From positions 1-36,523 of the forward strand of contig JACRLG010000030.1 of NCBI GenBank assembly GCA_016235345.1: 36,523 nt of DNA, written 5' to 3'. The translations under genes were made by a program, and so were the position numbers. This document shows, piece after piece, positions 959 through 16,622 of this stretch. Numbering within the stretch: position 1 is the first letter of the stretch; every line of letters begins with the position of its first letter. This DNA is from Deltaproteobacteria bacterium (lineage in GTDB: Bacteria; Desulfobacterota; Desulfobacteria; Desulfobacterales; Desulfatibacillaceae). The notes under the pieces were generated by a model, which worked only from the letters and a program-made list of their open reading frames with translations, ran no database searches and was not told the DNA's origin.

Positions 959-1167
959 AGGGCAAGACCTTTTACGACCGGCGGGGGGAGGTGGCCGCGT
1001 GCAGCGGCCACCTGGTAACCCCGGAGTTTGAGGAGGCCATGCAAGCCTACAACTGGCTCCAAAAGGGTTTTTTACCGTTTGGGCCAAGCGTCTGGGAACA
1101 CCCGAACAGGATGTTGGAAGCGCTGGAAATACTCACCAAGGCGGCGGAAGATGGCGAGAAAAAATGA
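863..1167 (+). CDS. -1 frame extension of tail chaperone (gpGT-like)
   Basis: The -1 frame continues from the slippery site at 856-862 to TGA 1165-1167, adding about 101 residues to the first 84 of the chaperone. The more distinctive part runs from VKGKTFYDRRGEVAACSGH through TPEFEEAMQAYNWLQKG to LEALEILTKAAEDGEKK, which looks like a genuine folded, helical protein. There is no well-placed start with a ribosome binding site for independent translation; the internal ATG at 1039 would give only 42 residues. In lambda the T extension contacts the tape measure protein, and here the frame overlaps the tape measure start (1151) by 17 bases. The residues just after the shift are Arg/Cys rich and may be a linker. 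Confidence 0.55.
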
Positions 1168-3916
1168 ATTAGAGCTTGTCATAAAGGCCGACGCCGACCG
1201 CGCCAAGGCGGCTTTTAAATCTTTTGGGAAAGATGCGGCTGACGCCCTGGATGGCATAAGGTCCAGGGCGTTTTCCGCCCAAACGGCGCTGGTAAGCCTG
1301 GCCGGTGGCGTTACTATGGGGGCCATAGCCAAGGGCGGCCTGAATATCGCGGCCAGCTTTGAGCAACTACAAGCATCCTTGAACACCATAACCAAGGGCG
1401 AGGGCACTCGCTGGTTTGCGGAGTTAAACAAGTGGGCCATCGAGATGCCCATAAATACCGAGGAGGCTATAAAGGGCTTCTCAAAAATGCGGGCCATGGG
1501 TTTAAAGCCCGCCATAGCCGACATGACGGTGCTGGTGGACACCGCCGCCGCCGTGGGCGGCGACAACGTGATGGATTCATTTAATGGGATCGTCACCGCT
1601 CTTGGCCAGATGAAAACCAAGGGCAAGGCCAGCGCAGAAGAGCTGATGCAGCTCGCGGAACGCAACGTACCTGTTTTTGAAATTTTACGCGAAAAGCTCA
1701 ATTTAACTCAGAAAGAGCTGGGCAATATCGGCAACGCGGGCCTTGATGTTGACCTCGTCATAAAGGCGCTTCTTGAGGGCATGGCCGACCGCTTCGGCGG
1801 GCAATCGACCAAAATGAACCAGACCTGGAACGGCATGTGGGAGAACATGAAGGCCACCGTGGCCGAATTCTCTCGTTATGTCATTACCGAAGGCGGCGCA
1901 TTTGAGGAGCTTAAAGGCCAACTGAAAGGCGTGACCGCAGAATTTTCCAGTTGGGCCGAGGTAAATAAGAACCTGATTGCCCAGGAATTGCCGAAATACA
2001 TCAAGGAAATAACCGACACGGCCAAGGGCATCGTTTCCTTTGTTGACGCGGGTGGTTCCGGTTTGGCCGGGGCCGGGGTACTGGGTTATCTGTTTTTTGG
2101 CGCGGGCGGGGCCGCCGCCGTTGTGGCGGGCTTTGCGGCCATCGACGGGGCATCCAAGGCCATTGCCGGGCCGCAAACGGCAAATGCCGTGACCCTGAAA
2201 AAGATAGAGGAAATCGAAAAACTGCGGGCCAACCTGGCCAGCGAAGTGAAAATAGGCCCAAGCATTTTCGGCTATTCAAAGGCCGAAATAGCCGAAATGG
2301 CGCGCGGCGTGGCCGCCTACGACAGACAGCTTTCGGCCCTCAAAGCAAGCCTTGTCGAAACGAAAAAGGTCGTCGCCTCCACCCCCATAAGCACCGCGCA
2401 GGTAATGCGCGGCGACTATTCCGCCGCCCGCGTTGCCGACCCGGAAAAGGCGGTTAAGGAAGCCGAAAAAGCGGCCAAAAAAGCGGCCAGTGCCGCGAAA
2501 AAAGCCACCGACGAGGCCGCGAAAGCTACCAAAGACGCGGCCCAGAAATACATGGATGAATGGGGCGGAAACGGGGCCTGGGGCAAAGCCTACGAAGTGG
2601 CCGCCGAAGCATCTGTGCAGGCCGAGGAGGACCGCTACGAGGCGTGGAAAGCGGCAAGTGACCGCCACATGGCACAGATCGCACAGGCGGCGGACGACGC
2701 TTTCAAGGCCGCCAACCCATCAATGGATGAGATCGAAGCCTGGGCCGCCGATTATACTGGCGCTTATGCTGCCATGTACGCTGATACCGAGGCGCTTTCC
2801 AGCCAGCGGTACAATCTGGAGCTTGAACAGCTTCAAAAGCAGCGCAAGGCATTTGTGGACCTTACGGGCGACGAAATAAGCGCCCAGGCCTGGTTCAACG
2901 GCAAATCCAAAGCCCTGTGGCGCGACTGGGCCTACACATCCGGCGGGTTTGTGGACGGGGTGAAGGCGGCCTTTGATGAGCTTTCCGACGAGCAGGTGAA
3001 GTGGGGCGCTGTCGGTTACGAGGTGGTGCGGGACTTTGCCGAAAACAGCAGGGAGGCTGTATCGAATCTGCTTTTCGACGGCATCACCGGCGAGCTGAAA
3101 GACTTCGCGGATTATTGGGAAGCCACCTGGAAATCCATGCTCCGCACCTTTACCGACGTGCTTGCGGACATGGCCGTCAAGTGGGCCACGTCGAAGCTTT
3201 TCGGCGCTTCGGGCGGCGGTTCGCTTTCGGTGGGCGGCGTGGCGTCAAGCGCGGGCGGCTCCCTGGTTTCGGGCCTTGCCAACAGCGTTTTGGGCAAGGG
3301 CGTTTCCGCCGTGGCGGGCTGGCTCGGCATCGGCGGCGGTACGGGCGCGGGCATCGGGCTTGCCAGCACTGCCGGCACCCTTGGCACCCTGGGCGTGGGC
3401 ACGCCCGCCCTGGACGCCCTGGCCGCAAGCGTGACGGCAGAAACCGCAGGGGCCGCCGGGGCCATGACGGCGCTCGGAGTCTTGGGCACGGCGGCTGGAA
3501 TCGGTGCCGCAGTGTTCGCGGTTGGGAAAATCATGGACCAGGTGCTTGGATCTGACCCCACAAAGCCCTGGAGCTTCGACGTTTATCGGGCCGGGGCCGC
3601 CGGGCTCGCCGGGCCGCTGGCCATTGGCGGGAACTCCACGGTTACGCCCGATGTGCCCATGACTCCCGAAAACTTCGCCTACTATTCCAGCCCCGCCGGA
3701 ATGAAGACCTGGCGAAAGGCCATGCTGGCCAAAAACAGGCAGGTGAACGATGCGGTTAAGGCGGCGGGCGTTGAAACCGCCGTCAACATCACCGTCAACG
3801 GCGTCGTAACCACCGACGACGTGGGCACCTGGGCGGCTGACCTGGCCGCCAAAAACAACGTGTTCGGCCTCACCAGCTTTGCCAACACCAAAACGGTAAA
3901 AGCGGGGCTCCAGTAA
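1151..3916 (+). CDS. Tail tape measure protein
   Basis: This protein of 921 residues sets tail length and helps DNA entry in siphoviruses. I chose ATG 1151, giving MARKNELELVIKADADRAK, over the upstream in-frame start at 1028, which would overlap the chaperone extension much further. Residues about 65-265 form a lambda gpH-like tape-measure N-terminal domain (SFEQLQASLNTI, then KASAEELMQLAERNVPVFEIL). A hydrophobic Gly/Ala-rich segment lies near 305-330 (GVLGYLFFGAGGAAAVVAGF), followed by a Lys/Ala-rich coiled-coil stretch (AEKAAKKAASAAKKATDEAA). Near the C-terminus, TWKSMLRTFTDVLADMAVKW resembles the conserved gpH tail, and a low-complexity Gly/Ala region follows. The stop overlaps the next start as TAATG, implying translational coupling. 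Confidence 0.88.
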   Translation: MARKNELELVIKADADRAKAAFKSFGKDAADALDGIRSRAFSAQTALVSLAGGVTMGAIAKGGLNIAASFEQLQASLNTITKGEGTRWFAELNKWAIEMPINTEEAIKGFSKMRAMGLKPAIADMTVLVDTAAAVGGDNVMDSFNGIVTALGQMKTKGKASAEELMQLAERNVPVFEILREKLNLTQKELGNIGNAGLDVDLVIKALLEGMADRFGGQSTKMNQTWNGMWENMKATVAEFSRYVITEGGAFEELKGQLKGVTAEFSSWAEVNKNLIAQELPKYIKEITDTAKGIVSFVDAGGSGLAGAGVLGYLFFGAGGAAAVVAGFAAIDGASKAIAGPQTANAVTLKKIEEIEKLRANLASEVKIGPSIFGYSKAEIAEMARGVAAYDRQLSALKASLVETKKVVASTPISTAQVMRGDYSAARVADPEKAVKEAEKAAKKAASAAKKATDEAAKATKDAAQKYMDEWGGNGAWGKAYEVAAEASVQAEEDRYEAWKAASDRHMAQIAQAADDAFKAANPSMDEIEAWAADYTGAYAAMYADTEALSSQRYNLELEQLQKQRKAFVDLTGDEISAQAWFNGKSKALWRDWAYTSGGFVDGVKAAFDELSDEQVKWGAVGYEVVRDFAENSREAVSNLLFDGITGELKDFADYWEATWKSMLRTFTDVLADMAVKWATSKLFGASGGGSLSVGGVASSAGGSLVSGLANSVLGKGVSAVAGWLGIGGGTGAGIGLASTAGTLGTLGVGTPALDALAASVTAETAGAAGAMTALGVLGTAAGIGAAVFAVGKIMDQVLGSDPTKPWSFDVYRAGAAGLAGPLAIGGNSTVTPDVPMTPENFAYYSSPAGMKTWRKAMLAKNRQVNDAVKAAGVETAVNITVNGVVTTDDVGTWAADLAAKNNVFGLTSFANTKTVKAGLQ

Positions 3917-10027: not shown

Positions 10028-10930
10028 ATGAGCCTTCAAAAAACAGCCGGGACAATCGTTTCCGGCCAGGAAAAGTGGTGGGTCAAACAGGGCCTTGAAA
10101 GCCCTGTGGTTTCGGTCGAGGACTTTGAAAAGGGTATGGGGCGCGTGCCGGATGTGGTGGGGGAATTCGGGTATTTTCCCTCCTCCATTTTGGTTCTTTC
10201 GCGGCCCAAGGCCCTTTTTGATTATCTGGCGGACGTGGGCCGCCCTCAAAGGCACATCGCCAACGCCTATCACACGCCCATAGGCGCTTCAATCTTCCCG
10301 CCAGCGGCGTCATGGTTCTGCATCAAATACTGGAGTTGTAAGGGCGACGTGGTTCTTGACCCCTTCGGCAACCGGGCCAACATCGGCCTTGTGGCCAACT
10401 GGCTGGGACGCCGGGTGATTTTAAACGACATCGCCCCGTCCTACTGCCGTATGATGGAGGACGCCGGAGAGCGCCGCGTAAATCAGGATCTGCCCTGGAC
10501 GGTTTTCAACCGCGACGCCGCAAACCTTTCCGAAATCCCCGATTCCAGCGTCGATCTTATTCTTACCGGCCCGCCTTACCACAACGTGGAGCCGTATGAA
10601 AAGGTGCCCGGCCAGGCCAGCAGCTTTCGGACCTACGCTCAATTTCTGGCCTGGTATGGCCGCGTAGCGGCCGAATTGCACCGCCTGATAAAGCCTCAGG
10701 GCTACTGCATTTATAAGGTGGGAGACTGGCGCGTAAAAGGCCGCATCGTGCCCTTTACCTATGACACGCAACGGGTTTTCGCCGAAGCCGGATTTATTTT
10801 GCACGATGTTCTGATCTGCGTGGAGCCCGCGCCTTTGGGCGGAGGCTGGTCATGGGCTTCAAAATGGCGTTCGCGCTACGTTTCAAAGGCACATCAGACC
10901 GTTTTTGTCTGGCGCAAAGAGGACATTTGA
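10028..10930 (+). CDS. DNA methyltransferase-like protein, atypical motifs
   Basis: This 300-residue protein has the layout of amino-group DNA methyltransferases in which the SAM-binding motif comes first. Residues 111-116 read DPFGNR where DPFxGxG is usual, followed by GLVANWLGRRVILNDI. Residues 180-186 read TGPPYHN where (D/N/S)PPY is usual. A Gly at the first position of that catalytic motif is unexpected, and the motif-I glycines are partly replaced. No restriction endonuclease gene is nearby, so this is an orphan enzyme or a relative with another substrate. Phage methyltransferases often protect phage DNA. The following gene starts 2 bases after the stop, suggesting a functional pair. 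The fold assignment is firm; activity is uncertain. Confidence 0.75.
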   Translation: MSLQKTAGTIVSGQEKWWVKQGLESPVVSVEDFEKGMGRVPDVVGEFGYFPSSILVLSRPKALFDYLADVGRPQRHIANAYHTPIGASIFPPAASWFCIKYWSCKGDVVLDPFGNRANIGLVANWLGRRVILNDIAPSYCRMMEDAGERRVNQDLPWTVFNRDAANLSEIPDSSVDLILTGPPYHNVEPYEKVPGQASSFRTYAQFLAWYGRVAAELHRLIKPQGYCIYKVGDWRVKGRIVPFTYDTQRVFAEAGFILHDVLICVEPAPLGGGWSWASKWRSRYVSKAHQTVFVWRKEDI

Positions 10931-10932
10931 CC

Positions 10933-11490
10933 ATGCGCATTATCCGCCTTCCAAACGTCAAAACCATAAGGGCCGAGGTGATCCGAGACAGGCTTCCGCC
11001 CGGAACCAGGCGCATTGTCTGCCTTTCCTGCGGCAACGCCACCAGGGCGCTTGAGGGCGTTATAAAAGGCGTTCCGGTCATAAAGCTGGATTCCGAAAGC
11101 CCGGTTTCAGCCCGCCGGGAACTTTCGGCCCAGGAGATTCAAACCTATTTTGGACCGGAAAGTTTTAACGCCACAAGCGGTTATCTGCCCTTGGATTTGA
11201 CAGCCGAAATCGGGCAGCGCCTCATGGCATATATACCGGAACTTCTGGAGGGCGACCGTCTTTACGTGCCCTGCGGAAGCGGGGAAACCATAGCGGCCCT
11301 GTCAAATTACATTCCTTTGGCCCGCATGACCGCCGTAAGCGCCCTTTATCCGCCCATAGAGGCAATGGGGCCGCTTTACCGCTGGCTCGCCGCAAACATG
11401 AAAACCGTCAACGTGGGCCGGGTGAATTCGGTCGCCGAGGCTCTCAGGCTTGCCGCCAGAGGCAAGGGTTTTGCTTTGTGCTGGGAGTGA
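10933..11490 (+). CDS. Unrecognised protein paired with methyltransferase
   Basis: This 185-residue protein starts at ATG 10933, right after the TGA of the methyltransferase gene; an in-frame upstream start at 10852 would overlap that gene. I do not recognise its family. Visible landmarks are RRIVCLSCGNATRALEGV near residues 28-45, YFGPESFNATSGYLPLDL in the middle, and RLYVPCGSGETIAALSNY near 108-125, a Gly-rich loop after a strand that could bind a phosphate or cofactor. There is no signal peptide or membrane segment. The overlap-like spacing suggests it works with the upstream protein, for example in DNA modification, but nothing in the sequence proves that. Confidence 0.65.
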   Translation: MRIIRLPNVKTIRAEVIRDRLPPGTRRIVCLSCGNATRALEGVIKGVPVIKLDSESPVSARRELSAQEIQTYFGPESFNATSGYLPLDLTAEIGQRLMAYIPELLEGDRLYVPCGSGETIAALSNYIPLARMTAVSALYPPIEAMGPLYRWLAANMKTVNVGRVNSVAEALRLAARGKGFALCWE

Positions 11491-11545: not shown

Positions 11546-12925
11546 ATGGCAAACGAAGAACATCTCGCAATACTCAGGCAGGGCGTCGAGGTCTGGAATA
11601 AATGGCGGGAGGACAACCCTGATATAAGGCCGGATCTTGAGGAGGCTGATTTTGCCGGAGCCGACCTGTCCGAAATTGATCTCGGCAACGCATACCTGTT
11701 AAAAGCCAACCTGAAGGGGGCGAATCTCTTCAAAGCCTACCTCCATCATGCTTATCTCAGCGAGGCGGACCTTACGGGGGCCAACCTTTGCGAAGCAAAC
11801 CTTGCCGAATCGGATTTGGTGGGGGCTTATGCCAATGGGGCGGACTTCGCCGATGCGGAACTTAGGCATGCCGAGATTTGGGATGCGAACTTCAGCGGGG
11901 CGGATCTAAGTTGTGCGTCGCTTTTTAGTTCAGACCTTGGTTATACAAACTTTAGCAAGGCAAACTTGCGGCAAGCGGACATCAGTAAAGCAGACCTCCA
12001 TTTTACAGATCTTGGAGGAGCCAAGCTTTGCGAGGCGAATTTTGAGGAAGCGAACCTTAACCTGACGAACCTGCGCGGGGCGGATCTTGAAAACGCAAAC
12101 CTGCAATATGCCGATTTGGGCCGGGCTGACCTGCGCCTTGCAAACCTCAAAGGGGCCGACCTCCGCAATGCAAGGCTGAACGGGGCGGCATTGTTAACCA
12201 CATGTTTCGAAAACGTGAAACTTGCCTGGACCTCCTTTTCATTCATGGACTTAAGACAGGCCAAGGGTCTTGATACCGCCTTCCATTTCGCTCCCTCCCA
12301 TGTGGACATCCACACCCTGTATCGTTCAGAAGGCGAGATTCCCGAAGCCTTTTTGAAGGGCGCGGGAATCGGCTCCAAATTCATATCCCGCATCCCGTCA
12401 AGTTTTTCGGGCAAGCCGGTCCGGGCTTATTCCTGCTTCATCTGTCACTCCAGCAAGGACAGGGATTTTTTGGAAAAACTGCGGTCCGATCTTTACGCAA
12501 ACGCTTTTGAATGCTGGCTGGAGCTTTCGCCCAAGGAAGACGGGCCTTGGCGCGCTATAGAAATGGAGGAGATGGCAACCCGCTTCGACAAGCTGTTGCT
12601 CGTTCTTTCGGATACCAGCCTTGGCGAAAATTGGATCGATGGTCAGCTCCTCGGCCTGATCCGCGAGGATGAGGACAGAAATAATCGCCGCAAGCTCTTC
12701 TCAATCCGGCTGGCGGACGAGGATGCGGTTGGTGCCTGGAAATGCGATGACAGAGGAAAGGACATGGCCGCCTGGGTCCGTGAGGGGGCCATCCACGATT
12801 TTTCAACCTGGAAGGACCACGGATCTTATACGAGGGCCTTTGACAGACTTTTAAAAGACCTTCAGGCCGAACCCAAGACCAATCCGATAATAAATGAAGA
12901 TTTAACGGGCTATCAAGGCGGGTAA
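11546..12925 (+). CDS. Pentapeptide-repeat protein with C-terminal TIR domain
   Basis: This 459-residue protein starts at ATG 11546. Residues 1-35 (LRQGVEVWNKWREDNPDIRP) are the usual lead-in of such proteins. Residues about 35-240 are A(D/N)LxxA-type pentapeptide repeats forming a quadrilateral beta-helix. Residues about 291-435 are a TIR domain (YSCFICHSSKDRDFLEKL, then FDKLLLVLSDTSLGENW and FSTWKDHGSYTRAFDRLL). Bacterial TIR domains often cleave NAD+ in anti-phage defence. In NAD-cleaving TIRs the catalytic Glu lies four residues after a conserved Trp; here W363 is followed at that place by Q367 (WIDGQ). The protein may thus be catalytically dead, a decoy or a scaffold. It is the last prophage gene, the usual place for lysogenic cargo. 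Confidence 0.85.
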   Translation: MANEEHLAILRQGVEVWNKWREDNPDIRPDLEEADFAGADLSEIDLGNAYLLKANLKGANLFKAYLHHAYLSEADLTGANLCEANLAESDLVGAYANGADFADAELRHAEIWDANFSGADLSCASLFSSDLGYTNFSKANLRQADISKADLHFTDLGGAKLCEANFEEANLNLTNLRGADLENANLQYADLGRADLRLANLKGADLRNARLNGAALLTTCFENVKLAWTSFSFMDLRQAKGLDTAFHFAPSHVDIHTLYRSEGEIPEAFLKGAGIGSKFISRIPSSFSGKPVRAYSCFICHSSKDRDFLEKLRSDLYANAFECWLELSPKEDGPWRAIEMEEMATRFDKLLLVLSDTSLGENWIDGQLLGLIREDEDRNNRRKLFSIRLADEDAVGAWKCDDRGKDMAAWVREGAIHDFSTWKDHGSYTRAFDRLLKDLQAEPKTNPIINEDLTGYQGG

Positions 12926-15053: not shown

Positions 15054-16622
15054 ATGCATCGTTCATTTCCCCGCCCCGACTTTGTCTCCTGGTTCTGGGC
15101 CGCGCTTTCAGGGCTTTTGCTGGCTGCGGCCTTTCCCAAGACCGGCTGGGACTTCCTTTCATGGGCGGCTCTGGTTCCCCTGTTCTGGGCCGTTAACCGC
15201 AAGACTCCCAGCCAGGCGGCCCGCTTGGGCCTTGTTTTCGGGGTGGTCCATTTTTCACTGGTGGTTTATTGGGTCGTCATCGCCATGACCGTTTACGGCG
15301 GCGTGTCATATTTGCTTGCAGGGCCGATTCTGATTCTGATGGCCGCGTTCCTGGGCCTTTACCCGGCCATGTTCTGCCTTGTGACCCGCTGGTGCGCCGC
15401 AACCCCCATGCTCTTTCTGGTTGCCGCGCCTGCGAGCTGGGTGGGCCTTGAGTTCGTGCGCCTTCATTTTCTGACCGGTTTTCCCTGGTGCAGTGTCGGC
15501 CACGCCTTCTACATGCGCACGAGCCTTATACAGATTGCGGACATCACGGGCGTTTACGGGCTTTCGTACCTCGTAGTGCTCGTGAATGCGGCCATCTTCG
15601 TTGCCCTGTGCACGGCCCGGAAAATCCCCGTGTTCGGGCGGAACGCCTCCTTCAAAACAGCGGTTTTCGGGCTTGGGACGGCGCTGGTCCTTCTTTCCGG
15701 GGTCCTGGGTTACGGAAAATGGCGAATGGCGGAGACGGACGCCCTGGCCGCCAAGGTCGAAAAGGTCAAGGTTGCGGTCATCCAGGGCAACATCGATCAG
15801 GCCGTGAAGTGGGACCCCTCCTATCAGGCCGCCACCATTGAAAAATACGAGGCCCTTACAAGGCTTGCATCGAGGGGAAAGCCCGACATCGTTATCTGGC
15901 CCGAAAGCGCCATGCCCTTTCATTTTTTGCGGGAGAGCCTTTACACGGAAGATGTTTTGGCGCTTGCGCGGGAAACCGGTGCCAGCCTCCTTGCCGGGAG
16001 CCCCTATTGCGAGCCTGACGGTGAAGGCTGGAGGTGCTTCAACCGCGCCTATCTCGTCTCCCCGGATGGTTCCGTAACCGGCCACTACGACAAGGTCCAC
16101 CTGGTTCCCTGGGGCGAATACGTGCCCCTTAAAAAATGGATGCCCTTCATCGAAAAGCTGACACAGGAAGTGGGGGATTTCGAGCCGGGCCAGCCGGGCA
16201 GGGTGCTTTATGCGGGAAAAGCCAAAATCGGCCTTGGAATCTGCTACGAGATAATTTTCCCGGCGCTTTCACGCAAGCAGGTGGAGAACGGGGCAAACAT
16301 TCTGGCCACCATAACCAACGACGCCTGGTACGACCGCTCTTCCGCCGCTTACCAGCATTTTGCGATAGCCTCCTTCAGGGCGGTTGAAAACAGGCGGGCA
16401 CTGGCAAGGGCCGCGAATACAGGCATTTCAGGTTTCGTGGACCCATGCGGAAGAATCGGCCAAACCACCGCCCTTTTCACCGACGCCTGGGCCGTGGTGA
16501 AACTCCCCCTTCTTGAAAGCCGGACCGTCTACAGCCGTGTGGGGGACCTGTTCTCCTGGCTCTGCGCCATATCCGCCCTTTTCCTCATTCTTTTGGGCTT
16601 CAAAAAGCGCCTCGATTCGTGA
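15054..16622 (+). CDS. lnt: Apolipoprotein N-acyltransferase
   Basis: Lnt transfers the third acyl chain from phospholipid to the N-terminal cysteine of lipoproteins, the last step of lipoprotein maturation at the inner membrane. The 522-residue length is normal. Residues 1-220 contain several hydrophobic membrane helices (FWAALSGLLLAAAFPKTGWD at the start). Residues about 235-490 form the nitrilase-like periplasmic domain. The catalytic triad is visible: E284 in IWPESAMPF, K347 in YDKVHLVPWGEYVP, and C397 in GICYEIIFP. A last membrane helix (DLFSWLCAISALFLILLGF) anchors the C-terminus. Outer-membrane lipoprotein sorting normally needs Lnt, so its presence fits a didermic bacterium. prfB follows after 80 bases. 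The start has no strong ribosome binding site. Confidence 0.95.
   Translation: MHRSFPRPDFVSWFWAALSGLLLAAAFPKTGWDFLSWAALVPLFWAVNRKTPSQAARLGLVFGVVHFSLVVYWVVIAMTVYGGVSYLLAGPILILMAAFLGLYPAMFCLVTRWCAATPMLFLVAAPASWVGLEFVRLHFLTGFPWCSVGHAFYMRTSLIQIADITGVYGLSYLVVLVNAAIFVALCTARKIPVFGRNASFKTAVFGLGTALVLLSGVLGYGKWRMAETDALAAKVEKVKVAVIQGNIDQAVKWDPSYQAATIEKYEALTRLASRGKPDIVIWPESAMPFHFLRESLYTEDVLALARETGASLLAGSPYCEPDGEGWRCFNRAYLVSPDGSVTGHYDKVHLVPWGEYVPLKKWMPFIEKLTQEVGDFEPGQPGRVLYAGKAKIGLGICYEIIFPALSRKQVENGANILATITNDAWYDRSSAAYQHFAIASFRAVENRRALARAANTGISGFVDPCGRIGQTTALFTDAWAVVKLPLLESRTVYSRVGDLFSWLCAISALFLILLGFKKRLDS

Follow-up and report, generated by a model that had tools for sequence, protein, structure and literature searches.

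The window analysed here, meaning the whole stretch of DNA under study, corresponds to a complete contig of 36,523 bases (C30) from a genome of 4.01 Mb. It carries a gene encoding a protein in which pentapeptide repeats precede a TIR domain, together with the features listed in Table 1. Phage genes lie to the left of this gene, and to its right comes a tRNA-Arg followed by genes taken as the host's, one of which (15054–16622) is present in nine out of nine genomes of the host's taxonomic family. The tape measure gene on the phage side has no match at 1e-10 in the eight other genomes of that family, some of which are incomplete. The pentapeptide-repeat/TIR gene thus lies beside phage genes, of which the tape measure gene is absent from those genomes, as expected of prophage cargo; this supports the prophage setting proposed in a preliminary description of this DNA. 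The scan of window proteins turned up no integrase, and searches for an att repeat gave none, the 3′ end of the tRNA-Arg being without a second copy in a window whose left end is also the contig end. With phage genes on the left, host genes on the right, a tape measure gene absent from the family genomes and no att repeat, the locus is best taken as a prophage or a prophage remnant, one end of which is unseen. The tRNA-Arg is a possible but unproven integration site. When the stretches upstream of lnt were compared in four relatives, the neighbouring 388-aa gene was seen only in that of the congener (L088) and a tRNA in none of them, so that integration at this tRNA is not settled.

Table 1. 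Features of the pentapeptide-repeat/TIR gene and its surroundings (positions in the window; residues are those of the 459-aa protein).
Feature	Coordinates	Strand	Evidence or remark
Tail tape measure protein	1028–3916	+	Pfam TMP_3 1e-18; phrog_973 2.5e-19
DNA methyltransferase with phage relatives	10028–10930	+	Pfam N6_N4_Mtase 4.8e-18; phrog_12517 (unknown function) 7.8e-36; phrog_498 (DNA methyltransferase) 4.3e-22
Pentapeptide-repeat/TIR protein, 459 aa	11546–12925	+	ORF list, Pfam; start matches the MANxEH-type start of relatives
N-terminal helices and pentapeptide beta-helix, residues 1–235	11546–12250	+	Pfam PF00805 (Pentapeptide) 1e-50
Conserved linker of the family, residues 236–292	12251–12421	+	14/16 conserved columns kept
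TIR core with accelerated change, residues 293–388	12422–12709	+	Longest terminal branch; TIR_2 39.6 bits
Cys300, Ser in 31/31 other two-domain members	12443–12445	+	40-row alignment
BB loop region, rewritten, residues 325–336	12518–12553	+	Alignments, rate test
W363-I-D-G-Q367, WxxxE position, Gln replacing the catalytic Glu	12632–12646	+	Alignments
C-terminal part, residues 389–459, conserved motif IxDFxxWKDHxxYxxAFDRLLKDL	12710–12922	+	8/9 conserved columns kept
tRNA-Arg(tct) adjoining the phage block	13086–13162	-	Putative integration site

In the viral contig search, no relative of the protein or of its TIR domain was confirmed; the TIR of the related locus L002, used as query, gave none either, and that of L015 gave two. 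Neither the family TIR, with L002 as query, nor the TIR studied here matched any phage record; the whole protein had 408 matches among phage records, none of them spanning more than 80% of the query; the 40 listed of these 408 fall within residues 1–304, mainly on the repeats. Two viral relatives, weak and partial, were found for the tape measure protein and none for the methyltransferase. A 212-aa ORF without clear family (10852–11490) overlaps the end of the methyltransferase gene. Elsewhere in the same genome, on contig C35 (L035, 1438–2677), a tRNA-Leu adjoins a phage integrase gene on the reverse strand (Pfam Phage_integrase 9.2e-21), and part of the locus shows 83% identity to the end of the tRNA-Arg region of the window; the locus may be a second integrated element or else the other end of this prophage.

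The protein fits a pentapeptide–TIR two-domain family, with the repeats, the linker, the TIR and the C-terminal motif all present, and it is 31–47% identical to 16 relatives. A purine-rich run, AAGGGGG, can be seen by eye a few bases 5′ of its ATG. By a simple motif count, repeat-like motifs lie N-terminal of the TIR in all 31 other two-domain members. Its Pfam TIR_2 match (8.3e-10) reaches 39.6 bits for a cut-off of 28, against 89–92 bits in L015, its nearest relative by tree, and in L073 and L074. Every score against the Qnr and MfpA gyrase-inhibitor models is far under the NCBIfam cut-off, and PADLOC-DB gave no clear model match for the protein, the better of two weak ones being to ThsB of Thoeris (E 0.027). 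The gene is in single copy in its genome and has one match (46% identity) in the eight other host-family genomes. Four other TIR_2 proteins above cut-off are encoded in the same genome, with architectures that differ by sequence.

Two structural models of the protein reach moderate confidence (mean pLDDT 70.7 and 71.8), the first with low-confidence patches at residues 74–95 and 195–215. Confidence is also moderate in the TIR, with block pLDDT values of 53–82 in the first model and 47–93 in the second. The N-terminal part resembles pentapeptide solenoids (Z up to 22.9). For the TIR, the 50 matches listed for this moderate-confidence model have Z scores of 11.6–13.7, with 12.8 to BtTir and 13.7 to a SPARTA TIR. 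Such a predicted fold is expected and proves little, because relatives sat in the modelling alignment.

A first alignment comprised 19 rows, the protein and 18 relatives. The main one has 40 rows, of which 32 are two-domain proteins, including the one studied here, and eight carry long C-terminal extensions; 15 partial matches (L007, two L008 pieces and L058 among them), identical copies and matches below 25 bits were left out of it. The sampling covers one phylum in depth and other phyla through 13 loci and viral contigs, and the class and order genome searches overlap. The preliminary description had read a Gln in place of the catalytic Glu in W363-I-D-G-Q367, and alignment of the homologs bears this out: the column is Glu in 18/18 other rows of the first alignment and in all 31 other two-domain members of the second. 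The Gln367 codon is CAG (12644–12646), which a single base separates from a Glu codon. The Trp of the WxxxE motif is retained by the protein, as by 28 of the 31 other two-domain members and 14 of 18 rows in the first alignment. Solved structures lead to the same register. With the protein alone as query, phmmer pairs Gln367 with the second Glu of W-T-E-Y-E in BtTir (7uxr), in an alignment that is gapless from Trp324 to Gln367 and has a single one-residue gap near residue 307. The family profile sets the same column on the Glu of W-T-N-Y-E in AbTir. A different Glu taking over the catalytic position would have overturned the reading; the phmmer alignment with BtTir places none of the protein's Glu residues there.

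The same description had pointed to CHSS where SYSS is usual, which holds for one residue only. Cys300 is unique among the two-domain members, since all 31 others have Ser, whereas His301 is ordinary, being found in seven of them (Tyr in 21, Phe in two, Asn in one). Two features looked for in a TIR NADase, the Glu four residues after Trp and the betaA Ser, are therefore both replaced, by Gln367 and Cys300 respectively. The protein retains W363, G333 and the second Ser, S302. At the position of AbTir R151, the family profile has Lys and the protein, as read by eye in the alignment, Glu310.

The change extends well beyond these two residues. Taking as conserved the columns with at least 80% agreement in the other two-domain members, and classes of columns set after inspection of the alignment, the protein keeps only three of the eight pocket columns, where each of the other 31 keeps six to eight and the eight longer proteins two to six. 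Elsewhere in the TIR core, 16 of 21 conserved columns are kept; the linker and the C-terminal part are given in Table 1. Sliding identity shows two troughs, at about residues 320–345 (BB loop, alphaB) and at 360–382 (CC loop, alphaC), between which the strand DKLLLVLS is retained. In the sliding intervals that cover residues 327–348, mean identity to the other members goes down to 0.08, the values for L015 being 0.54 and 0.48. The loop preceding the WxxxE position is thus changed in composition, as had been noted, but the longer loop attributed to the relatives was not found: W324–K349 aligns without gaps against most of them in the first alignment, where inspection by eye leaves room for an offset of about two residues between loop and helix. 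The losses cluster in BB loop/alphaB and CC loop/alphaC, regions that in known TIR NADases are those of the NAD site and of assembly. Among the sampled sequences, this rewritten TIR is shared by no close relative.

On a fixed tree, the terminal branch of the protein for residues 293–388 is 2.11, the largest of 40, against 0.12 for L015, with which it pairs at a support of 60. For the flanking segments the branch is 0.60, seventh largest of 40, against 0.27 for L015, which means that the flanks also change about twice as fast as those of L015. Only L049, which belongs to the longer proteins, exceeds the resulting TIR/rest ratio of 3.5, with 3.7. Relative-rate tests against L015 were run with 13 outgroups chosen by hand from 30 possible ones. 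In the TIR core, they count 28–45 changes specific to the protein and 1–6 specific to L015, with p from 1.3e-9 to 2.2e-5 and the same outcome for 13/13 outgroups. The linker shows an excess on the same side with 12 of the 13 outgroups, mostly non-significant (significant with two and not with 11), and the C-terminal part reaches significance with one outgroup and not with the other 12. Fisher tests of the TIR versus the rest give values below 0.05 with nine of the 13. By these rate tests, the change in the TIR is beyond chance. A frameshift artefact was considered and rejected: other frames of the TIR stretch score no better, and the block 332–343 is near or below zero in all frames. No clear shift in base composition was seen either (GC 0.53–0.54, GC3 0.58–0.66).

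Characterised bacterial TIRs are mostly NADases, and the other members of this family, judged by their conserved WxxxE, look like TIR NADases. Two viral contigs (L073 and L074) carry relatives with Pfam pentapeptide and TIR_2 domains, 61–63% identical to the linker and TIR of L015 and with the Glu kept; Pfam finds both domains in L015 too. In L074 the gene is preceded by those for the major head, tape measure and tail-completion proteins, and the L073 contig encodes a primase and the small subunit of a terminase. L015 itself lies on a 6-kb contig with an MMPL transporter, one ORF without family and one further ORF outside the scan; its TIR part has a PADLOC match to PDC-S66 (5e-16). In L093 (985–7157, overlapping L039), 105 bases separate a Gabija pair (GajA 1.6e-217, GajB 9.3e-257) from the pentapeptide–TIR gene that follows it, which in turn precedes a gene with a sub-threshold SIR2_2 match. 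At L002, L094 and L095 the neighbours are housekeeping genes. Because viral or Gabija settings are seen in some members and housekeeping neighbours in others, a defence role of the family can be inferred but is no general result. The part of the literature searched contains no tested system with this architecture, which does not prove that none exists.

Some members depart from the usual layout. In L005 (6001–8366) and L008 (374–2556), the pentapeptide–TIR gene is followed by a pentapeptide/ion-channel-like gene; the two ion-channel-like genes are 40% identical, with Ion_trans_2 in L005, and the L008 TIR is without the betaB-to-alphaB stretch while the Glu is retained. A 544-codon frame in L006 (4346–5977), beside a second pentapeptide–TIR gene, has two TIR_2 stretches flanking pentapeptide repeats. 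The eight longer proteins (L004, which is the L055 protein, L049, L051–L054, L056 and L062), from the same order and a Desulfobacteraceae MAG, form a clade of frames of about 720–855 codons with pentapeptide repeats, the family linker, an eroded TIR and some 356–378 extra residues, in which Pfam finds cNMP_binding and DUF4388 in the four of the eight that were scanned (L004, L052, L053 and L054). The catalytic Glu is kept in six of the eight and replaced by Ala in L054 and Met in L062; the betaA Ser is lost in five. These eroded TIRs suggest that this kind of loss may have occurred more than once, in a number of events that the trees do not settle.

According to PMC11374754, the NADase activity of AbTir and TcpC requires equivalent Ser and Glu residues: it is lost in AbTir E208A and inhibited in AbTir S140A and in the TcpC S176 mutant. 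R151 of AbTir is also required, and its BB loop, alphaB and alphaC shift conformation upon ligand binding (PMC11374754); the paper makes no mention of E208Q. Loss of NADase catalysis in the present protein is well supported at the sequence level, by the absence of both the Glu and the betaA Ser and by the rewriting of the BB-loop and alphaC stretches. An active NADase in which the Gln is tolerated would be in keeping with the retention of W363, G333 and S302, but the inactive E208A and S140A forms of AbTir (PMC11374754) make this the least credible of all readings. Hardly more credible is a new enzyme whose rewritten pocket takes another substrate or uses another acid: the change does centre on the pocket, and a TIR fold is predicted all the same, but Glu and betaA Ser were lost together and, for want of a close relative, no new acid can be named as conserved. 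Import of the TIR segment by recombination from a distant TIR gene is improbable too, even though the rate change is bounded near the edges of the TIR and a tree of the TIR segment alone groups the protein with the eroded long proteins (support 50), a grouping that may be long-branch attraction. The best BLAST matches of this segment among the compared loci are two-domain proteins (L001 at 5e-16, L074 at 2e-15), above the long proteins (best 9e-10) and unrelated TIRs (best 1e-8), and GC is even.

The explanation that we favour, and hold to be probable, is that of a catalytically dead TIR, or pseudoenzyme, carried as prophage cargo and retained for a non-enzymatic job. The prophage, or its remnant, would have carried the pentapeptide-repeat/TIR gene, whose TIR would have lost NAD cleavage in this lineage while the protein was kept for another role. 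In the likeliest form of that role, the solenoid and the kept C-terminal face of the TIR would bind a partner, which could be a TIR protein or a ligand of the solenoid itself, and the bound protein would scaffold or cap an assembly. Relaxed decay, already envisaged in the preliminary description, is a possible but clearly weaker account, according to which a TIR that has become dispensable is drifting, either because the pentapeptide part alone matters or because the whole gene is being lost. It would explain the longest TIR branch of 40, the raised rate in the flanks, where the comparison with L015 weighs in its favour, as well as the single copy and the one match in the other genomes of the host family. 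It is disfavoured by the intact 459-codon frame and by the excess of change in the TIR core; the retained frame, core strand and C-terminal motif argue against simple decay. A neutral TIR branch would predict about 10 stops (2.11 x 96 sites x 0.052 stops per missense, on a branch near saturation), and about three would be expected from a cautious count of the 62 visible differences from L015, with a chance of zero near 0.05. The stop-codon count and the weaker acceleration of the flanks favour a retained function over decay, in a suggestive rather than decisive manner.

A special form of the favoured pseudoenzyme reading, about which we are rather doubtful, is a dominant-negative cap or decoy that would join TIR assemblies by its C-terminal face, its changed BB loop blocking extension and so blunting TIR-driven NAD loss. 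A decoy competing for TIR partners, as the preliminary description had suggested, is possible, and a one-sided cap acting through the kept C-terminal part fits this idea best, because the BB loop and alphaC, both assembly surfaces, are the rewritten parts. According to PMC12847820, the BE interface sets the BB loop of one TIR against betaE, alphaE and the DD loop of its neighbour, and SpbK mutants altered in the BB loop and in alphaC have neither NADase activity nor a defence effect. It is therefore conceivable, if speculative, that a TIR whose BB loop is changed and whose C-terminal part is kept could cap an assembly. The four other TIR_2 proteins of the host could be partners. Against this, the partner is only putative, the other host TIRs differ in architecture, and alphaC, the second assembly surface, is rewritten as well. 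It is unlikely that the prophage made a TIR NADase into a chain-terminating cap by destroying its BB-loop side and catalytic site while keeping the C-terminal acceptor face and the solenoid, thereby poisoning competing defence TIR assemblies. Such a cap, if real, would be a TIR-based inhibitor of TIR immunity. More generally, a TIR in a phage setting with a rewritten pocket, set beside the related L015 protein that keeps its active site, offers a natural test of whether prokaryotic TIRs can act as pure interaction modules or inhibitors.

Among solved structures of known systems, the family profile matches AbTir and BtTir (PDB 7uwg, 7uxu, 8g83; 7uxr) best in sequence, BtTir being the best for the protein alone. 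They share with it the TIR fold and an alignable WxxxE position; the protein differs by its Gln for Glu, its Cys for the betaA Ser, its rewritten BB loop and its fusion to a pentapeptide solenoid. Its relatives at L015, L073, L074, L039/L093, L001 and L002 have the same domain order and linker but retain the Glu and the Ser, whereas the long cNMP_binding/DUF4388 proteins resemble it in linker and eroded TIR and differ by their extra residues. MyD88 and TIRAP are non-catalytic TIR adaptors, in which the TIR serves as a binding module. Both appear in the family profile search and are comparable to the protein by analogy, as TIR binding modules, no close kinship being claimed. SpbK of Bacillus subtilis, set against it by description and not by sequence (PMC12847820), is alike by analogy only, through a sensor part joined to a TIR and a phage–host setting; unlike the protein described here, it is an active NADase and has another N-terminal domain.
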